Assembly: GCA_903864275.1 (NCBI GenBank)
Contig: CAIPFE010000050.1
Coordinates: 1-64,000 of the forward strand
Direction: 5' to 3'
Length of the DNA: 64,000 nt
From: an uncultured Mucilaginibacter sp.
GTDB lineage: Bacteria; Bacteroidota; Bacteroidia; Sphingobacteriales; Sphingobacteriaceae
The notes under the pieces are model-generated. The model was not told the DNA's origin. It saw only the letters and a program-made list of their open reading frames with translations, and did not search any database. Position numbers and translations under genes: made by a program. This document shows positions 75 through 58,274 of the stretch, in pieces (within the stretch, counting starts at the first letter, position 1; every line of letters starts with the position of its first letter).

Positions 75-1400
75 TTACTTTTTCATCACCAATTTCTTCA
101 CAACAGAGTCGCCTACTACAGTACCAAACTCATGTGAAACAACGCAAGAATTGTGAAAATGTATGCCGCCATAAAACCTGGACAAGGCGGTTTCATTCGC
201 CGCATCCTTAAATGACTTAAAAGACCGGTTTTTTATGCCAAATACAAGCTCCGACGTATCCGTATAAGCCACGTTATCACCGAAAATACTGGTAAGTGCC
301 TCAGCAGCCGCCGCTGATATAGTGCAGTGTCCACAGGTATATTCCGGAAATGGCGGGGTTTGAAGGTGGGGTCGCCAGTTCGGGTCGAAATATTTATCAA
401 TTATTGTTTCGGGCCTCACCGTTTTATACTTGAATTTTGCCGCCCACGATTCGATAAAACCGTCAAACAATGCAATGGCTGTTTTGGCATAAGCGCAAAC
501 CGTAGTGCTGTAATCGGCTTTTGTTTTTTCGGCCCCAATGCCCACCACGCTCATCCAATGCCCCGGCGGTGAAAACTTTTTGGTGACGAACATCACATGC
601 CCTGCCACATTTAATTTCTGCGGGTTATCATCCCAAAAGTCCGCAATGTGCGTTTGTTCTGCATTAAGGCTATCTACTGTGTTTTTGATGTACATTACTT
701 CTTTAAAGTATTTGCTGTTCTTGTCTTTTATATCAAACACAGGCGGCGGCGGCACGCTGTATTGTTTTGCATCGCGCATTACCATGGTTCGTATTTCGCC
801 CCAGTGCGGCTCTACAGCCTCGAAATAACCAGGCGGGGTAGGCACCCAACGCCATATCGAATCCTTGATGGAAAATTTCGGGGCGCTCCTGGTTGCGAGA
901 TAATGGTCGCCCTTACTCCAGGCCATAATGGAAAGCGCTACGGCTTTAGCATATTTTTCGGAGTTACTGATCATTTCATCGGGCATACCATGGGTTACCG
1001 CCAGCTGGTGCAAGCTATCGGTATACAATTTCAAACTGCCTTCGGGGAAAGTTACTGCTTCGCCTACTTTGCAAAAAGCCAGTAAGGCGGCGTACTCATA
1101 ATCAATACCTTCGTTTGCCGCAGGCTTTGCAACTTTTTTAAAGCCGTTAAGCTGGCCAACAAGCGATTGGTATTTATCCGGATACCCGGCGGCAATTACC
1201 TCGTAACCAGCTATTGACGCATATGCGTAATTGCGGGAAGCAACAGGCGGCGAAAAGTTATTGCCCATAACCACGCTATTTAATTCGTAAACAGTACGGC
1301 TGTATAAGCCGGGGTCGTGAAAGATATTTTTATAGTCAGGCTTTTTACATGAGGCAAAAAGCATAACAGAAATCAGGGTTAAAAACAAACAACGTCTCAT
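75..1400 (-). CDS. Vanadium-dependent haloperoxidase / PAP2-fold lipoprotein
   Basis: A 441-residue exported lipoprotein of the vanadium haloperoxidase/acid phosphatase superfamily. The N-terminus is a lipoprotein signal with Cys18 in an FASC lipobox. The C-terminal third carries the three vanadate/phosphate-binding blocks: K322-x6-R329-P330, then T-C-G357-H358, then S-R408-x5-H414. The usual Ser of the P-S-G-H block is Cys here. It is the last gene of a run with the GH65 enzyme and an FG-GAP lipoprotein (25 bp after GH65), so it is probably expressed with sugar catabolism. Family members oxidise halides or act as phosphatases; the sequence does not decide between these. The superfamily is sure, the substrate is not. 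Confidence 0.85.
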   Translation of the reverse strand: MRRCLFLTLISVMLFASCKKPDYKNIFHDPGLYSRTVYELNSVVMGNNFSPPVASRNYAYASIAGYEVIAAGYPDKYQSLVGQLNGFKKVAKPAANEGIDYEYAALLAFCKVGEAVTFPEGSLKLYTDSLHQLAVTHGMPDEMISNSEKYAKAVALSIMAWSKGDHYLATRSAPKFSIKDSIWRWVPTPPGYFEAVEPHWGEIRTMVMRDAKQYSVPPPPVFDIKDKNSKYFKEVMYIKNTVDSLNAEQTHIADFWDDNPQKLNVAGHVMFVTKKFSPPGHWMSVVGIGAEKTKADYSTTVCAYAKTAIALFDGFIESWAAKFKYKTVRPETIIDKYFDPNWRPHLQTPPFPEYTCGHCTISAAAAEALTSIFGDNVAYTDTSELVFGIKNRSFKSFKDAANETALSRFYGGIHFHNSCVVSHEFGTVVGDSVVKKLVMKK

Positions 1401-52805: not shown

Positions 52806-52940
52806 TTGTGAGGGTTGTAATGAGTTGTAAAGGTTAAAGTGGTTGAAATTGACCGCCGATGCATTTTTAACTTTTTAAAACTTTTATAACTCCTACAACT
52901 TCTTGCAACATTTACAACCTCTTACAACCTTTACAACCAC
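52806..52940. repeat. TTGTAA-type inverted repeat between Anbu and transglutaminase genes
   Basis: GTTGTGAGGGTTGTAATGAG and AGGTTAAAGTGGTTG on the left are answered by CTACAACTTCTTGCAAC and CTTACAACCTTTACAACC on the right, ending directly before the next ATG. It may weaken read-through or form a hairpin that hides the start. Confidence 0.55.
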
Positions 52941-52941
52941 C

Positions 52942-53787
52942 ATGAAATTCAACGTCCTCACTGAAATGGAATATACGGCGCGCTCGCCGGGAACAATTAT
53001 ATTGAATATCCATGCGCTGCGGACACCTCACCAGACCGTGATTAATGAAACGTTGACTATTGAACCCTATATAAAAGTTGAAGAACTGGTAGCTGCCCAA
53101 AGCGAGAACCGCCTGATAAGGTTTGAAATTCCGGAGGCAAGTTCAATTAAAGTAATTTACAAAGCCACAATTGATAATTATTGCGAAATAACGGATTATA
53201 GCCAAATTGATGAGATCCAGGTTGCAAAAATGGATACGGCTATACTCCCCTACCTGTATCCAAGCCGTTACTGCCAGTCGGACAAGCTGTATCGTTTGGC
53301 AAATAACCTGTTTGGGCATATCCAAAATCCTTTTGAAAAAGTTATGACACTTACCAATTGGATCCACAAAAATGTACAATACCTCAGCGGCTCAACCAAT
53401 TCACAAACTTCTGCTTTTGACACGGTGACGGAACAATCGGGCGTATGCCGGGATTTTGCCCATTTAGGCATCGCCTTATGCCGCGCCTTAACTATTCCGG
53501 CCCGTTATTTTACCGGTTATGCCTGGCAATTAAAGCCTGCCGATTTCCATGCATGCTTTGAAGCCTACATAGGCGATCAGTGGGTTTTGTTTGATGCCAC
53601 GAAGCTTGTCCCGTTAAACGGGTTAATTAAAATAGCCTCAGGGCGCGATGCCGCTGATACCGCAATCGCCAATATTTTCGGGAATGTTATTTTTACTTCG
53701 ATGCTGGTAAGCTGCGAACTGGCCGAAGATGGCTTTGAACCGTTTTATTACCTGCAGCCTGGTTTAATGGGGCTGTCCTACTTATAA
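52942..53787 (+). CDS. Transglutaminase-like cysteine protease family protein (Anbu-associated)
   Basis: 281 residues from the ATG at 52942 (an upstream ATG at 52903 lies within the repeat tract). An N-terminal beta domain (1-150) is followed by the transglutaminase-like core with the triad C169 (SGVCRDFAHLG), H203 (DFHACFEAY) and D218 (LFDATK). COG1305 proteins of this type accompany Anbu in many bacteria and may cut or modify peptides. It lies 137 bp after the Anbu gene on the same strand. Its stop is followed by a minus-strand tRNA-Cys, so transcripts converge. The pairing is well known; the substrate is not. Confidence 0.9.
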   Translation: MKFNVLTEMEYTARSPGTIILNIHALRTPHQTVINETLTIEPYIKVEELVAAQSENRLIRFEIPEASSIKVIYKATIDNYCEITDYSQIDEIQVAKMDTAILPYLYPSRYCQSDKLYRLANNLFGHIQNPFEKVMTLTNWIHKNVQYLSGSTNSQTSAFDTVTEQSGVCRDFAHLGIALCRALTIPARYFTGYAWQLKPADFHACFEAYIGDQWVLFDATKLVPLNGLIKIASGRDAADTAIANIFGNVIFTSMLVSCELAEDGFEPFYYLQPGLMGLSYL

Positions 53788-53860: not shown

Positions 53861-53861
53861 G

Positions 53862-53932
53862 ACGTCGCGGGCAGATTCGAACTGCCGTGAGGGGTTTTGC
53901 AGACTCCCACCTATCCTCTCGGTCACGCGACT
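53862..53932 (-). tRNA. tRNA-Cys (anticodon GCA), slightly irregular
   Basis: A 71-base cloverleaf on the minus strand. D stem ACC/GGT, anticodon loop CTGCAAA (GCA), T stem GGCAG/CTGCC with loop TTCGAAT, U73 discriminator as needed for Cys. The acceptor AGTCGCG/CGCGACG has six good pairs, but the terminal 1-72 position is A opposite G, and the anticodon stem GGAGT/ACCCC has an A-C mismatch. No CCA is encoded. It is either a divergent functional copy or a decaying one. It lies 48 bases after the S-box aptamer on the same strand. Confidence 0.82.
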
Positions 53933-53934
53933 TT

Positions 53935-53980
53935 AAAAAAAAACTATTAATCACTTATCTTGACCGGAGGGTGGGTTTTA
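53935..53980 (-). promoter_or_regulatory. Expression platform between S-box and tRNA-Cys
   Basis: It holds GATAAGT (53953-53959), which can pair with the first strand of P1 (ACTTATC, 54160-54166) in place of the normal partner. CCTCCGGTCA (53961-53970) can pair with TGACCGAGAGG of the tRNA D arm (53915-53925) over ten pairs with one bulge. Nine T's (53935-53943) directly precede the tRNA. The function is inferred. Confidence 0.5.
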
Positions 53981-54168
53981 AATTATCTTTCCCCGCTTTC
54001 GCGGAGCAGGAGTTAGCACCTTTTTTTCAAGTCCGAAGTCTTAAGTTCAAAGTCTTAAGTCAATATTTTAGGATAATTTGACTTTAGACTTACGACTATC
54101 GACTTTCGACTTAAACAAGGTTGCTAAGACTTCAAAGGGCCTTTCCCTCAGTCTTTCTGGATAAGTAC
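53981..54168 (-). promoter_or_regulatory. SAM-I (S-box) riboswitch aptamer
   Basis: The conserved S-box core is readable on the minus strand: CTTATC..AGA, then GAGGGA, GGCCC, TGAAG, GCAACC, GGTGCTAACTCCTGC, a P4 hairpin (CTCCGC GAAA GCGGGG) and AAAGATAA. P1 is TTATC with GATAA, P2 is AAGACT with AGTCTT. It binds S-adenosylmethionine and normally controls methionine or cysteine genes. Here the P3 loop is stretched to about 100 bases by an inverted heptamer array (54029-54112). The next gene in the reading direction is tRNA-Cys, not a metabolic gene. Confidence 0.9.
54029..54112. repeat. Inverted heptamer (AAGTCnn) array inside the S-box P3 loop
   Basis: Arm 1 (54029-54061) and arm 2 (54080-54112) each have about five AAGTC-based units of seven bases in opposite orientation. 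The reverse complement of arm 2 matches arm 1 at 24 of 33 positions. The result is a long imperfect stem on top of P3. Confidence 0.8.
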
Positions 54169-54190
54169 ATATAAAGAACGATTGCTGATG

Positions 54191-54198
54191 CAAATGTA
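54191..54198 (-). promoter_or_regulatory. -7 box of the S-box transcript
   Basis: On the minus strand TACATTTG fits TAnnTTTG exactly. It lies about 23 bases upstream of P1, so transcription would begin just before the aptamer. Confidence 0.55.
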
Positions 54199-54294
54199 TT
54201 AATTAAAACTATTATTCCTATAGATTTAATAGAATTAATTTGAAGAAATTGATAATTGACTGGATATTATCGAAATAAGTTACATGGTTAGCTG

Positions 54295-54335: not shown

Positions 54336-57300
54336 TCACGCCGGTTTCACCGGGCTGCCGGTCCAATCCGTTCCCGGCGATAATCTTTCGCCTTTCATCA
54401 CTAATGACAGCGCTTCAATATTGGTATCATCGCCCAGCTCGCTGTCGTACAAAATAATGGTGCCGGCGCCAACGCTGCTCCTGGCCCCTATTTTTACCGA
54501 TCCTACTTTCATTACACGGTCTTCAAACAAGTGCGTTTGGGGGCCGCAATCGGCGTTCAGGGCGGCGTCATCACAAATTGTGACCATATCAAACTCCGTA
54601 ATATCGGTGGTGTTCATCCACACCCGTTTACCAACTTTTACGCCAAGCAGGCGCATAGCAAGGGGCAGCCACGGCGTTCCCTGCAGAAACTCCAGCAAAA
54701 ACGGAATAGAGAGCGCCTCATAAGTAGAAGTAATAGCCTCGCTGCGCCAAACGTTCCAGCTCCACATTGGTCTTTGTTTGGGCTTGTATTTACCAATGAA
54801 GGCCCATTTTAATAAAACCGTAAGCAGGAAGGCGGGTATCCCCATATAAAACAGGTAATAAAACGGGAAATATAAAATGATCTTCCACAAAGGCTCTTCG
54901 GTCACCAGGTCGTGCCCGTACGCGATGAATAAGATGGAGCAGCAAATAATGGCTGTTTCCGGTAAAATGATCCGTATAAATTCAACAACGCTTCGCGCCA
55001 GTTTCCGGCGCTTATTGGGATGTATCGTCAATTCAGGTGGGAAAGGGTTGCTCTCCTGCCTGCGCGGCAGCGGGATAGCGGGTGAGCCAAACCAGTCCCG
55101 TGCATTGTTTGCCTCCATTTGCGCTGCATCAGGGGGCGTTGATAAAACACCGATCAGCATATTGCCATGCAGGTGATAACCTTGCGGGATCAGCGCGCTG
55201 TTACCCACAAAGCTATTACTGTCGATAGTGGTTTTGCTTAAGATCAGCTGCTGGGCGCGGACGTCGGCCTCGCCAAGCGTAACAGCATCGGCCACGAAAG
55301 CGCCATCGCCTATTTCCAGCAGCGGGTGCGTCACACTGCTGGCAGTAGAAATTTCTGTATCCTTGCCAATCTTCGCGCCTAACGCCCTGAAAAAACCGGC
55401 TACGTATACCGTGGCATAAATCGGGTGCATTACGATCAGGCTTAGCGACATCAGCTGATCGGCAAACCATTTGCGCACATAAAACATACTGTAGATTGGG
55501 TATACGCCCGGTTTTATGTTGCGCTGCAATAAACGGGTGAGCAAAATGGTTTCGGCGGCGAAAAGGATGATGTACAGCAATGCCAGCATCGGCGCGTGTA
55601 TCAAGTAAGTAAAATCGTAATCGTCGGCAGCGTTATCCAGTTTGTTGATGGCGATGATTGTCGGCAGCAGCGGCAGTAAAATAATAAAGGGGAAAACCAG
55701 GATCGACAAAATGAACACTGCCTTGTATTTTCGCCGGGTAAAAGTTGATACAGCTAAAGGCTGCGGCAGGTCCTCGATATTTTTCTTCTCCTTAAGCTGT
55801 GCCGGGCTACCCTGCCACACTTCGCCAGAAGCTATGGTTTTGCCGGCCTGCAGAAAACTAAGGTCCTGCAGCTCGCCCCAGGCCTCGATAGTGCTACCGC
55901 CCGAAATAACCGCGCTGCTGCCGATGTAAGCATGGTCGCCCAAAGTTATCTGCCGGAGCTTTAACATGCCGTCTTCTACAAAAACATTATTTAAATTTGT
56001 TTGCGAGCTGATGCTTACGTCGCTGCCTATGGTGATCAGGTCCTCGGCGCCAAAGCTAAATTCGCTAACCTGGGCGTCGGGGGCAATTTTCATCCCCAAC
56101 AGGCGCAGGTAACCGGGGTAAAGCGGCGTGCCGTTTAAAAACTGGGCAGGCAACAAGCGCTGCATGGCTTTTACAAACCACCACCTGAAATAATACGTAC
56201 CCCAAAGCGGGTAGTCACCTGCCTTCATTTTGCCTATGACCAGCCATTTGGTGCCAATACATAAAATGGTAAACACCGGGGGCATAATGGCAAACAGCAG
56301 CAATGAAGCAATAATGGAATCGGCGATATTGCCGGTCTCTTGATCCATGTAGTAATAGCCGAGATAAGGGATAAATACCTGGAAAGCAAACAGGCCATAA
56401 ATAAGCAGCAACGCAACGGTTTGTGCCGACCAGCAGGCAAGGTGCCGCAACACGGGTACTTTGTTAAACACCCGCTTAGGTTTCGCTTTCGCTTCGGCCC
56501 TGGTGCTCCACACTTCAATTAAATTACTTAGGGGCCGGTTGATGTACACATCCTTTAACGAGGCGTTGGGCAGCCCCGCGTCGCGCCTCAGCTGCGAAAC
56601 AAAGCCTGCTGCTAATAAGGAATGCCCGCCCAGGTCGGTAAAGAAATCCATATCGGGGCTAATCTCCCTGTTTGGAAATATCCTGTGCAATACGGCAAAT
56701 ATCCGGTCGGTAAGCGGGGCGCTCATGTCAATGGTTTCCGCCGGGCTATCCATATCAACCATTAATGAGGTGGGCACCGGCAGCGCTTTCCTGTTGATTT
56801 TTCCGCTCGGCATCCTGGGCATTTCGGTCATCACCATAACTGCTGAAGGCACCATATACGATGGCAAACCTTTTGACAGTTCGGCCCTGAACACGTTTTC
56901 TTCTATACAAGCCAGGCCTTCGGTCACCACATATCCCACCAAATGCTCGTGCCCCGCGCTGTCCTTTTTTACAGCCACCGCAGCCGACCGTACACCGGCA
57001 ATTTCATTTAGCTTCGATTCTATCTCACCTAATTCTATCCGGTAGCCGCGCAATTTTATCTGGTCGTCAAGCCTGCCCTGCATATCAACGCTGCCATCTT
57101 TGTTGATGATGGCAATATCGCCGGTGCGGTACACCATTTTGCCCGGAAGCATTGCCAGCGAAGCAGGTTTTGCAATAAATTTCTCTTTAGTCAGCTGTGG
57201 CAGTTTAACATAGCCCGACGATACGCCAGGCCCGGTGATTACCAGTTCACCTGCTTCACCGACCGGCACTAAATTCATTCCCTCATCCACTACGGCTAAA

Positions 57301-58274
57301 TTATAGTTGGGCAGCGGCTGGCCGATGATGATGGGGTCGCCTGCTTTCAGGGCCCCCATGGTTGCCGTAACAGTAGTTTCGGTAGGGCCGTAACTGTTGA
57401 AAAATTGCATGCCCTCTTTACTCCATTTGGCCAGCACCTGGGGTGTACAGGCCTCGCCGCCCGCATTAACCAGGCGTAATGAGGCTATACTATCCTCCAT
57501 CACAGCCAGCAAACTGGGCACCGCATGCAGTATAGTTATGTTTTCCTTTTTTAAGACATCCGAAAGCTCATCAATAGATTTTGAGGTGGTATTATCGGCA
57601 ACCCATAACGTGGCGCCGGCAAAATAACTGATCCAGGTTTCCTCGCACCACATATCAAACGATACAGAAAAACCCTGGTACACCTTATCGGTGGATCTTA
57701 TCTGTAAAATAGTTTGCTCAGAGCGAACGAGGTGACATATCTGTTTCTGACTGATGGGTATGCCTTTGGGTTTACCTGTGCTGCCAGAGGTGTAGAGGAC
57801 GTAGGCGCAATCGTTGGGGGAGGCCAGAGCGGTAGATTTAAAGGGGGCTTTGTCGACGGCCTGAGCGGGTATTGTCAGCATCTCACACTCCACATTCAAC
57901 TGCTCCACGCTGAAACAAGCAACCGCGCCTACTTCCTGCAATATCACCTCCACACGCTCGGCGGGGATCTCACGGTCAACCGGGACGTAGGTTGCGCCGG
58001 CCTTTACAATGCCGAGGATGATCACATGTAGTTCCAAACCGCGCTGCCACCACACGCCGACGTTACAGTTGCGGCCTATGCCTTTTTTTGTAAGATATTG
58101 AGCAACGGCATCGCTCCACGCATCCAATTCGGCGTAGGTTAGGCATTGGTCGTGAAAAATAAGGGCGCAATTATCTGGAAACTCTTGTGCCGATCTGCGA
58201 AATAATTCCGGCAACGTTTCTTCTCTTATCAGGTCCGGACGATCAGCGCCAAGAACAATACTTAGTTCATTCAT
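54336..58274 (-). CDS. Pls/PosA-type NRPS-like protein: adenylation, carrier, membrane and hexapeptide domains
   Basis: 1312 residues. Adenylation domain (about 20-500) with AYVLYTSGSTGKPKG (157-171), the amino-group-binding Asp in SFDMWCEETW (D207), NSYGPTETT, YRTGD (382-386), RLDDQIKLRGYRIELGE and K492 in PSGKINRKALP. Carrier domain (about 520-590) with phosphopantetheine Ser S552 in DLGGHSLLA. Then membrane helices (from about 612) interleaved with three left-handed beta-helix (hexapeptide acyltransferase-like) blocks, the first from about 735. This is the layout of the Pls/PosA family (epsilon-poly-lysine synthetase and relatives), which polymerise one activated amino acid without a classic condensation domain. 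No separate phosphopantetheinyl transferase gene is adjacent. The monomer is unknown. Confidence 0.88.
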   Translation of the reverse strand: MNELSIVLGADRPDLIREETLPELFRRSAQEFPDNCALIFHDQCLTYAELDAWSDAVAQYLTKKGIGRNCNVGVWWQRGLELHVIILGIVKAGATYVPVDREIPAERVEVILQEVGAVACFSVEQLNVECEMLTIPAQAVDKAPFKSTALASPNDCAYVLYTSGSTGKPKGIPISQKQICHLVRSEQTILQIRSTDKVYQGFSVSFDMWCEETWISYFAGATLWVADNTTSKSIDELSDVLKKENITILHAVPSLLAVMEDSIASLRLVNAGGEACTPQVLAKWSKEGMQFFNSYGPTETTVTATMGALKAGDPIIIGQPLPNYNLAVVDEGMNLVPVGEAGELVITGPGVSSGYVKLPQLTKEKFIAKPASLAMLPGKMVYRTGDIAIINKDGSVDMQGRLDDQIKLRGYRIELGEIESKLNEIAGVRSAAVAVKKDSAGHEHLVGYVVTEGLACIEENVFRAELSKGLPSYMVPSAVMVMTEMPRMPSGKINRKALPVPTSLMVDMDSPAETIDMSAPLTDRIFAVLHRIFPNREISPDMDFFTDLGGHSLLAAGFVSQLRRDAGLPNASLKDVYINRPLSNLIEVWSTRAEAKAKPKRVFNKVPVLRHLACWSAQTVALLLIYGLFAFQVFIPYLGYYYMDQETGNIADSIIASLLLFAIMPPVFTILCIGTKWLVIGKMKAGDYPLWGTYYFRWWFVKAMQRLLPAQFLNGTPLYPGYLRLLGMKIAPDAQVSEFSFGAEDLITIGSDVSISSQTNLNNVFVEDGMLKLRQITLGDHAYIGSSAVISGGSTIEAWGELQDLSFLQAGKTIASGEVWQGSPAQLKEKKNIEDLPQPLAVSTFTRRKYKAVFILSILVFPFIILLPLLPTIIAINKLDNAADDYDFTYLIHAPMLALLYIILFAAETILLTRLLQRNIKPGVYPIYSMFYVRKWFADQLMSLSLIVMHPIYATVYVAGFFRALGAKIGKDTEISTASSVTHPLLEIGDGAFVADAVTLGEADVRAQQLILSKTTIDSNSFVGNSALIPQGYHLHGNMLIGVLSTPPDAAQMEANNARDWFGSPAIPLPRRQESNPFPPELTIHPNKRRKLARSVVEFIRIILPETAIICCSILFIAYGHDLVTEEPLWKIILYFPFYYLFYMGIPAFLLTVLLKWAFIGKYKPKQRPMWSWNVWRSEAITSTYEALSIPFLLEFLQGTPWLPLAMRLLGVKVGKRVWMNTTDITEFDMVTICDDAALNADCGPQTHLFEDRVMKVGSVKIGARSSVGAGTIILYDSELGDDTNIEALSLVMKGERLSPGTDWTGSPVKPA

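Follow-up and report, generated by a model that had tools for sequence, protein, structure and literature searches.

A SAM-I riboswitch aptamer lies upstream of the gene for a second, unusual tRNA-Cys (here called tRNA-Cys2) in most of the genomes of the soil genus Mucilaginibacter in which this tRNA was found. The arrangement is real and conserved, and it is undescribed as far as we searched the literature. In the window (the whole stretch of 64,000 nucleotides that was analysed), the aptamer and a tRNA-Cys(GCA) gene called by ARAGORN follow one another on the minus strand, separated by a gap of 47 nt without an intervening gene. That SAM controls tRNA-Cys2 is likely, but this control is inferred, as there are no data on SAM binding or tRNA levels.

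The aptamer of the window matched the SAM-I (S-box) family RF00162 over its full length (model positions 1-108 of 108) in cmscan, with a score of 74.1 bits (gathering score, 44.4; E = 1.7e-15). It is thus a member of the class by score; binding of SAM is inferred, without binding data. The P3 region holds an insert of 85 nt, consisting of AAGTC-like repeats that fold back on themselves. Similarly long aptamers (182-200 nt) were seen in several relatives. The two other SAM-I aptamers of the same genome precede a putative O-acetylhomoserine sulfhydrylase gene and a putative MetH gene, which we take to be such from reading the translations. An mRNA of the methionine or cysteine pathway is the typical target of the SAM-I class, although this lies outside the Rfam definition. 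The aptamer of the window does not have this usual target, the next element being a tRNA with no gene between.

The features of the locus are listed in the Table. On the minus strand, the promoter-like box TACATTTG is followed by the aptamer, a linker containing a run of nine Ts (T9) and the tRNA-Cys, which begins 2 nt past this run. The downstream neighbour is a transglutaminase-like gene on the plus strand (52903-53787), opposite to the tRNA. Thus, a preliminary description that had reported a SAM-I aptamer directly before a tRNA-Cys, this order of promoter box, S-box, platform with T9 and tRNA, and a next gene on the other strand with no protein gene following, held on each of these points, and so did its coordinates. 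It had missed two points, namely that this tRNA-Cys is an unusual second one and that the 'short platform' is complementary to it. The upstream neighbour of the leader (54336-58274, minus strand) encodes a protein of 1312 residues with AMP-binding, PP-binding and hexapeptide-repeat domains.

Table. Features of the SAM-I/tRNA-Cys2 locus, in the order of transcription on the minus strand.
Feature	Coordinates	Strand	Remark
Palindromic operator-like box CTATAGGAATAATAG	54209..54223	-	Sole match in the genome to CTATNGGAWTNATAG
TACATTTG, putative -7-type promoter box	54191..54198	-	TAnnTTTG motif
GTTCTTT, boxA-like leader element	54173..54179	-	Kept in 39/40 distinct direct loci
SAM-I riboswitch aptamer, enlarged P3	53980..54167	-	RF00162, 74.1 bits
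P1 5' strand UACUUAUC	54160..54167	-	Partner 53980-53987 (P1) or 53952-53959 (P1')
AAGTC-type repeat hairpin expanding P3	54023..54118	-	Arms 54023-54063 and 54078-54118, 73% complementary
Anti-tRNA segment CCCACCCTCCGGTCA	53961..53975	-	Can pair with tRNA 8-13, 15-17 and 22-27 (minimum-energy fold)
Switch element GATAAGTGATT	53949..53959	-	GAUAAGUG is a partner of the P1 5' strand (P1'), GUGAUU one of the tRNA 5' acceptor strand AGUCGC
T9 run in pre-tRNA leader	53935..53943	-	Outside any predicted terminator
tRNA-Cys(GCA), second type (tRNA-Cys2)	53861..53932	-	ARAGORN; A1.G72 mismatch, U73

At E ≤ 1e-16, tRNA-Cys2 was represented by 92 genes in 90 of 149 Mucilaginibacter genomes. A SAM-I core was located at most 130 nt upstream of 44 of these genes (direct loci), with an aptamer-tRNA gap of 43-56 nt in the 35 direct loci measured. 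The aptamer was 250-263 nt upstream (spacer of ~250 nt) in 3 genes, about 800 nt upstream in 21, with a peroxiredoxin gene (AhpC/TSA and 1-Cys type) between, and about 1.25 kb upstream in 5, where the intervening gene encodes an aminotransferase class V protein that we take to be a cysteine desulfurase. No upstream SAM-I was found for 18 genes, and one gene was on a short contig (G104), where it likewise lies downstream of a peroxiredoxin. In total, 73 of the 92 genes have a SAM-I aptamer upstream on their own strand, at a distance of at most 1.6 kb (44 directly and 29 via a gene or spacer). Note that 65 of these aptamers were confirmed by cmscan and 8, all in direct loci, by the core motif alone; the aptamer scored above the Rfam cut-off in 36/36 direct loci scanned. 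With mostly 2-6 SAM-I aptamers per genome, a chance co-occurrence of ~0.05% per tRNA would be expected, a value that is an estimate and not a computed control. The observed frequency exceeds it.

A search with the exact pattern of leader and tRNA matched 32 stretches in named genomes, 28 of them from Mucilaginibacter and 4 from metagenome-assembled genomes named 'Bacteroidetes bacterium'. The transglutaminase neighbour of the window is present in 21/44 direct loci, with several others having too little downstream sequence, and the peroxiredoxin and desulfurase loci have neither of the window's neighbours. Since the neighbours differ between the classes, SAM-I and tRNA-Cys2 stay linked in at least three gene contexts.

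Three further observations concern individual loci. An open reading frame for a Cys-containing peptide of 52-56 residues (MK(T/I)YF..IVK...) lies between SAM-I and tRNA-Cys2 at L083:1324-1494, L098 and L099, its frame being kept across the three genomes. A tandem pair of tRNA-Cys2 genes (L084:301-372 and 422-493, minus strand) is found behind a single SAM-I-peroxiredoxin unit. Finally, a group of tRNA-Cys2 genes has the acceptor strand AGTCGGG (L080, L087, L088, L094-L097, L100, L101, L197 and L198); here the scanned stretch contained no SAM-I above the cut-off, and inspection by eye showed a hairpin-like sequence directly before the tRNA.

Outside the genus the arrangement was rare. In a family search of 351 genomes, matches to the tRNA (E ≤ 1e-9) occurred in 89 genomes representing 7 of 25 genera; 30 of the 89 belong to genera other than Mucilaginibacter. 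Examination of 20 regions from 19 of the 30 revealed SAM-I in one (L217, genus g2), 58 nt before the tRNA, and no SAM-I above the cut-off in the remaining 19. A second genome of the same genus as L217 gave no match to the exact pattern, and its closest tRNA-Cys had no SAM-I core in the 110 nt of upstream sequence shown. An order-level search with the exact pattern matched 29/390 genomes, namely 28 Mucilaginibacter and that of L217, with no match for a reversed control pattern. As this genome set is all of one family, the direct arrangement has been validly searched for within that family only. At L217 (1495-1722), SAM-I and the tRNA-Cys2 behind it are joined by a different linker, which may be a platform of the terminator type. 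The minimum-energy fold contained P1', a helix competing with P1 (see below), together with the acceptor and T stems of the tRNA. In the P1 state both stems were retained, a hairpin was followed by the U-rich stretch AAAUUUUU, and there was no pairing of the linker with the tRNA. Thus, coupling of SAM to tRNA-Cys2 may use more than one platform.

We analyzed the tRNA itself. A BLAST search with tRNA-Cys2 found two tRNA-Cys-like places in the genome at E ≤ 1, tRNA-Cys2 and a canonical copy (G000:C59:3649-3719) that has G1-C72 and is 76% identical. The tRNA-Cys2 gene of the window has the features of a tRNA-Cys (GCA anticodon, U73, G2-C71 and a cloverleaf), and the Rfam tRNA model remained below its cut-off on it in cmscan. 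The bacterial determinants of Cys identity are U73, G2-C71, C3-G70 and G34 C35 A36, with U73 and the GCA anticodon being the major ones (PMC9976931). In the window tRNA-Cys2, position 3-70 is U-A, so that the C3-G70 determinant is absent. Moreover, the tRNA does not have the paired 1-72 of an elongator tRNA, these positions being A.G.

To place this mismatch, we surveyed 93 distinct tRNA-Cys sequences, including canonical ones and those of other genera. Positions 1-72 were unpaired in 83 (63 A.G, 17 A.A, and one each of C.A, U.U and G.G), and U73 was present in 92. Among the 83, standard pairs from 2-71 to 7-66 were maintained through sequence changes, the exceptions being seven U.U at 6-67 and one C.A at 4-69. 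The 10 sequences with a standard 1-72 pair comprised four of the canonical type with G1 (L020, L029, L065 and L224), two of the second type in Mucilaginibacter (L082, A-U; L160, U.G) and four from other genera (L211, L212, L215 and L219). Thus, the 1-72 mismatch of tRNA-Cys2 is common but not universal. In initiator tRNA, a mismatched 1-72 is part of recognition by the formyltransferase, and S. aureus has a non-proteinogenic tRNA-Gly that escapes EF-Tu (PMC9976931). On the basis of that review, a special use of tRNA-Cys2, perhaps outside normal elongation, is possible; any such purpose of the extra tRNA-Cys is inferred.

Upstream of the aptamer, a TAnnTTTG box was found 24-37 nt before P1 in 40/40 distinct direct loci. 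This motif is the -7 promoter consensus of Bacteroidota. No TTG at a spacing of 17-23 nt before the box was detected in any of the 40. The linker between aptamer and tRNA contained TAnnTTTG in 0/40 loci, this being the only promoter type sought. A GTTCTTT element, which resembles boxA, is located just before P1 at nearly all of these loci (Table). The element is shared by 25 of 32 other SAM-I leaders examined, the best-scoring of a longer list (3 of them from SAM-gene-tRNA loci), and is missing from the other two leaders of the window genome. By eye, a palindromic box like CTATAGGAATTATAG could be recognised before many SAM-I leaders of the genus, again not at the window genome's other two; under a strict pattern, it has a single occurrence in the genome. 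Judged by eye and from the sequence alone, it may be the operator of a sulfur regulator. Given the presence of GTTCTTT in the other leaders, we rejected the idea that the palindromic box and the boxA-like element belong specifically to the tRNA.

No intrinsic terminator was predicted in the window, so that the locus does not qualify as an attenuation platform. The longest T run of the linker varied from 4 to 9 across the 40 loci and was only 4 in four of them. Termination at T9 was therefore rejected as the main reading. Four loci (L057, L059, L060 and L079) have no aptamer and carry a TAnnTTTG box shortly before the tRNA; they fit a shared promoter-tRNA unit that lost its aptamer, or gain of the aptamer elsewhere, both of which remain possible.

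The linker contains a segment, (G)AUAAGUG(AU), that is complementary to the 5' strand of the aptamer's P1 helix, (A/G)CUUAU(C). A helix competing with P1 is therefore available in silico (P1'). The motif AAGTGATT was present in 34/40 distinct linkers and (A/T)AGTG in 40/40. The P1' duplex was at least as stable as P1 in 35/40 distinct direct loci, including 2 ties (in the window, -8.2 versus -2.7 kcal/mol). Note that this comparison is biased towards P1', for which the entire rest of the linker was searched, as against 10 nt for P1.

The linker can also pair with the tRNA. In the unconstrained fold of the window, positions 8-27 of the tRNA were paired with the C/U-rich stretch CCCACCCUCCGGUCA (53961-53975), and its acceptor strand AGUCGC was paired with GUGAUU (53949-53954). 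The duplex between the whole linker and the 5' 36 nt of the tRNA had an energy of -26.7 kcal/mol, a value reached by 0/300 shuffled linkers. Similar co-linear pairing was obtained in many of the duplex predictions for 31 unique linker/tRNA pairs. Mononucleotide-shuffled linkers bound as well in 0-5/300 cases in some clades and in up to 75/300 in others; more than 15/300 (>5%) did so in 14 of the 31 pairs. As tRNA positions 1-22 are nearly invariant and the linkers align poorly across loci, shuffle and swap tests were used in place of column-wise covariation. When linkers were swapped between tRNA types, the own tRNA was preferred by a mean of -1.9 kcal/mol over 39 pairs, with 21/5000 label permutations being as good. 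For the variable region of the tRNA alone, after removal of both margins (double-centred), 24/720 permutations were as good. The specificity was limited: the linker of the window ranked its own tRNA 4th of 8 types (-24.3 versus -24.8 for three others), and among 29 distinct linkers the own tRNA won against tRNA-Cys2 of other architectures in 23 and against canonical tRNA-Cys in only 14. This weak preference over the canonical tRNA indicates that part of the complementarity is merely that of C-rich to G-rich sequence.

We next asked how the two pairings behave when folding is constrained. With the cloverleaf enforced, P1' of at least 5 bp formed in 32/40 loci, compared to 27% of 400 shuffles, and was absent or reduced to a single pair in the other 8. 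With P1 enforced, anti-tRNA pairing of at least 10 bp formed in 38/40 loci. Both features together were present in 75% of the 40 loci versus 10% of 400 dinucleotide-shuffled linkers. Mean energies over the 40 loci were -71.6 kcal/mol for cloverleaf plus P1' and -70.9 kcal/mol for P1 plus anti-tRNA pairing (mean difference -0.7 kcal/mol, sd 3.6, range -11.4 to 7.6). The alternative pairings thus have the predicted layout of a two-state switch. These energies leave out SAM and the pseudoknot of the aptamer. In the window, the minimum-energy fold without ligand was the anti-tRNA state (-98.0 versus -93.3 kcal/mol with the cloverleaf enforced). The element would therefore be off at equilibrium, and a switch would need co-transcriptional folding. 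As P1' can form before the tRNA is synthesised, the order of transcription would matter.

These properties suggest the following mechanism. A single transcript, with a start site inferred to be near 54190, would comprise the leader, the SAM-I aptamer, the linker and tRNA-Cys2. At low SAM, the 5' strand of P1 would pair with GAUAAGUG of the linker (P1'), opening the aptamer and masking the linker sequence that could otherwise pair with the acceptor strand, so that the tRNA could fold and mature. At high SAM, P1 would form, and the linker from CCCACCCUCCGGUCA to GUGAUU would pair with the tRNA over its first ~27 nt. Without a cloverleaf, RNase P and CysRS would lack a substrate and the tRNA would not be made. 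The element would thus be an OFF switch that uses the fold of the tRNA as its expression platform. The two alternative pairings are shown in silico; the direction of control and RNase P as the blocked step are inferred, as are all steps past P1. We regard this tRNA-misfolding platform as the best mechanism on hand, and lean only slightly towards it.

Several other explanations must be considered. The first is ordinary transcription attenuation, with RNA polymerase halting at the T run before the tRNA when SAM is bound. SAM-I platforms are often terminators, the T9 run of the window directly precedes the tRNA, and the P1 state of L217 has a hairpin followed by AAAUUUUU. However, no terminator-like hairpin precedes the T run in the window (the relatives being excluded from this statement), the longest T run of the linker is only 4 in four of the 40 loci, and GTTCTTT, if it is a boxA, would by inference promote readthrough. 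We consider attenuation unlikely.

Alternatively, the complementarity between linker and tRNA may be incidental, and SAM may act in another way, for example on the accessibility of the leader to RNase P or on RNA stability. The weak discrimination against canonical tRNA-Cys, the slight preference of the window linker for other tRNA types and the different platform in L217 speak for this possibility; the shuffle and swap controls across the whole set speak against it. We consider it improbable.

It is also unlikely that the S-box is a neutral leftover of a deleted gene, with the tRNA being transcribed irrespective of SAM. The SAM-gene-tRNA order in relatives (21 with peroxiredoxin and 5 with desulfurase) means that gene loss could have produced the direct arrangement, and similar leaders serve other genes. 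Yet no aptamer of the scanned direct loci has decayed below the Rfam cut-off, the gap length, the (A/T)AGTG motif and the alternative pairings persist across 40 distinct sequences, and SAM-I is kept with tRNA-Cys2 in three gene contexts. The preliminary description had raised this orphan S-box as its alternative to control of the tRNA by SAM. It is disfavoured because 44 tRNA-Cys2 genes of Mucilaginibacter, and one genome outside this genus, show the direct arrangement, and is weakened further by the 26 genes in which S-box, one gene and the same tRNA follow each other. Of the refutations it had proposed, a promoter between aptamer and tRNA was not found as TAnnTTTG in any of the 40 distinct loci (other promoter types being outside the search), and termination at the T run is not supported by a predicted terminator in the window or by a constant run length. 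An S-box before a gene does exist in relatives, but there the tRNA is located behind that gene, in keeping with co-control of the two.

Finally, a start of the tRNA's own within the linker, with GTGATTnATAGTTTTTT as promoter and the aptamer outside the tRNA transcript, is very unlikely: the GTGATT...TAGTTTT stretch also occurs at the aptamer-less L079 and in weaker form in L057, L059 and L060, but at these four loci it is downstream of TAnnTTTG (75 nt shown) and so probably within the transcript, and the linkers of the direct loci lack this box.

Control of the tRNA by SAM through its folding, our preferred reading, has only partial counterparts among known systems. The locus shares with other SAM-I riboswitches the aptamer class, P1 as the switching helix and a probable OFF logic, but differs in its target, a tRNA gene, and in its platform, which appears to be misfolding of the tRNA and neither a terminator nor a hidden ribosome site. 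The T-box riboswitch likewise joins an amino-acid signal and a tRNA in RNA regulation; in that system, however, an mRNA is targeted and the tRNA serves as ligand, whereas here the tRNA is the regulated product. The non-proteinogenic tRNA-Gly of Staphylococcus aureus (PMC9976931) provides a case in which a normal isoacceptor is accompanied by extra ones with an altered body, the alteration being in T-stem pairs and not, as in tRNA-Cys2, at an unpaired 1-72; a role outside translation is unshown for tRNA-Cys2. Bacterial initiator tRNA also has an unpaired 1-72, while tRNA-Cys2 differs from it in its GCA anticodon, U73 and, by reading of the sequence, a C-G and not an R-Y pair at 11-24. To our knowledge, metabolite riboswitches are not known to have targets other than mRNAs. 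In agreement with the earlier remark that no case was known, the open-access literature searched yielded no description of a tRNA gene under the control of a riboswitch, whether for SAM or otherwise. PMC2258182 deals, in its relevant sections, with transcription and translation control, and PMC2864571 mentions tRNA only as annotation and in its references. Subscription papers were mostly outside this search, and absence is unproven.

In a bolder reading, SAM directly decides the production of a translation-atypical tRNA-Cys2, with tRNA folding as the expression platform, so that the supply of Cys-tRNA, perhaps for use outside normal elongation, is wired to sulfur and methyl status in much of Mucilaginibacter. 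We would as readily expect this reading to fail as to hold. The switch is readily testable, as about 40 distinct natural variants are available. If it is confirmed, a tRNA target would constitute a new class of riboswitch output, the maturation of a stable RNA, and the level of SAM would be tied directly to the pool of cysteinyl-tRNA. A dispensable tRNA-Cys2 with a 1-72 mismatch poses the testable question of whether it serves Mucilaginibacter as an elongator or as a donor of Cys outside the ribosome.
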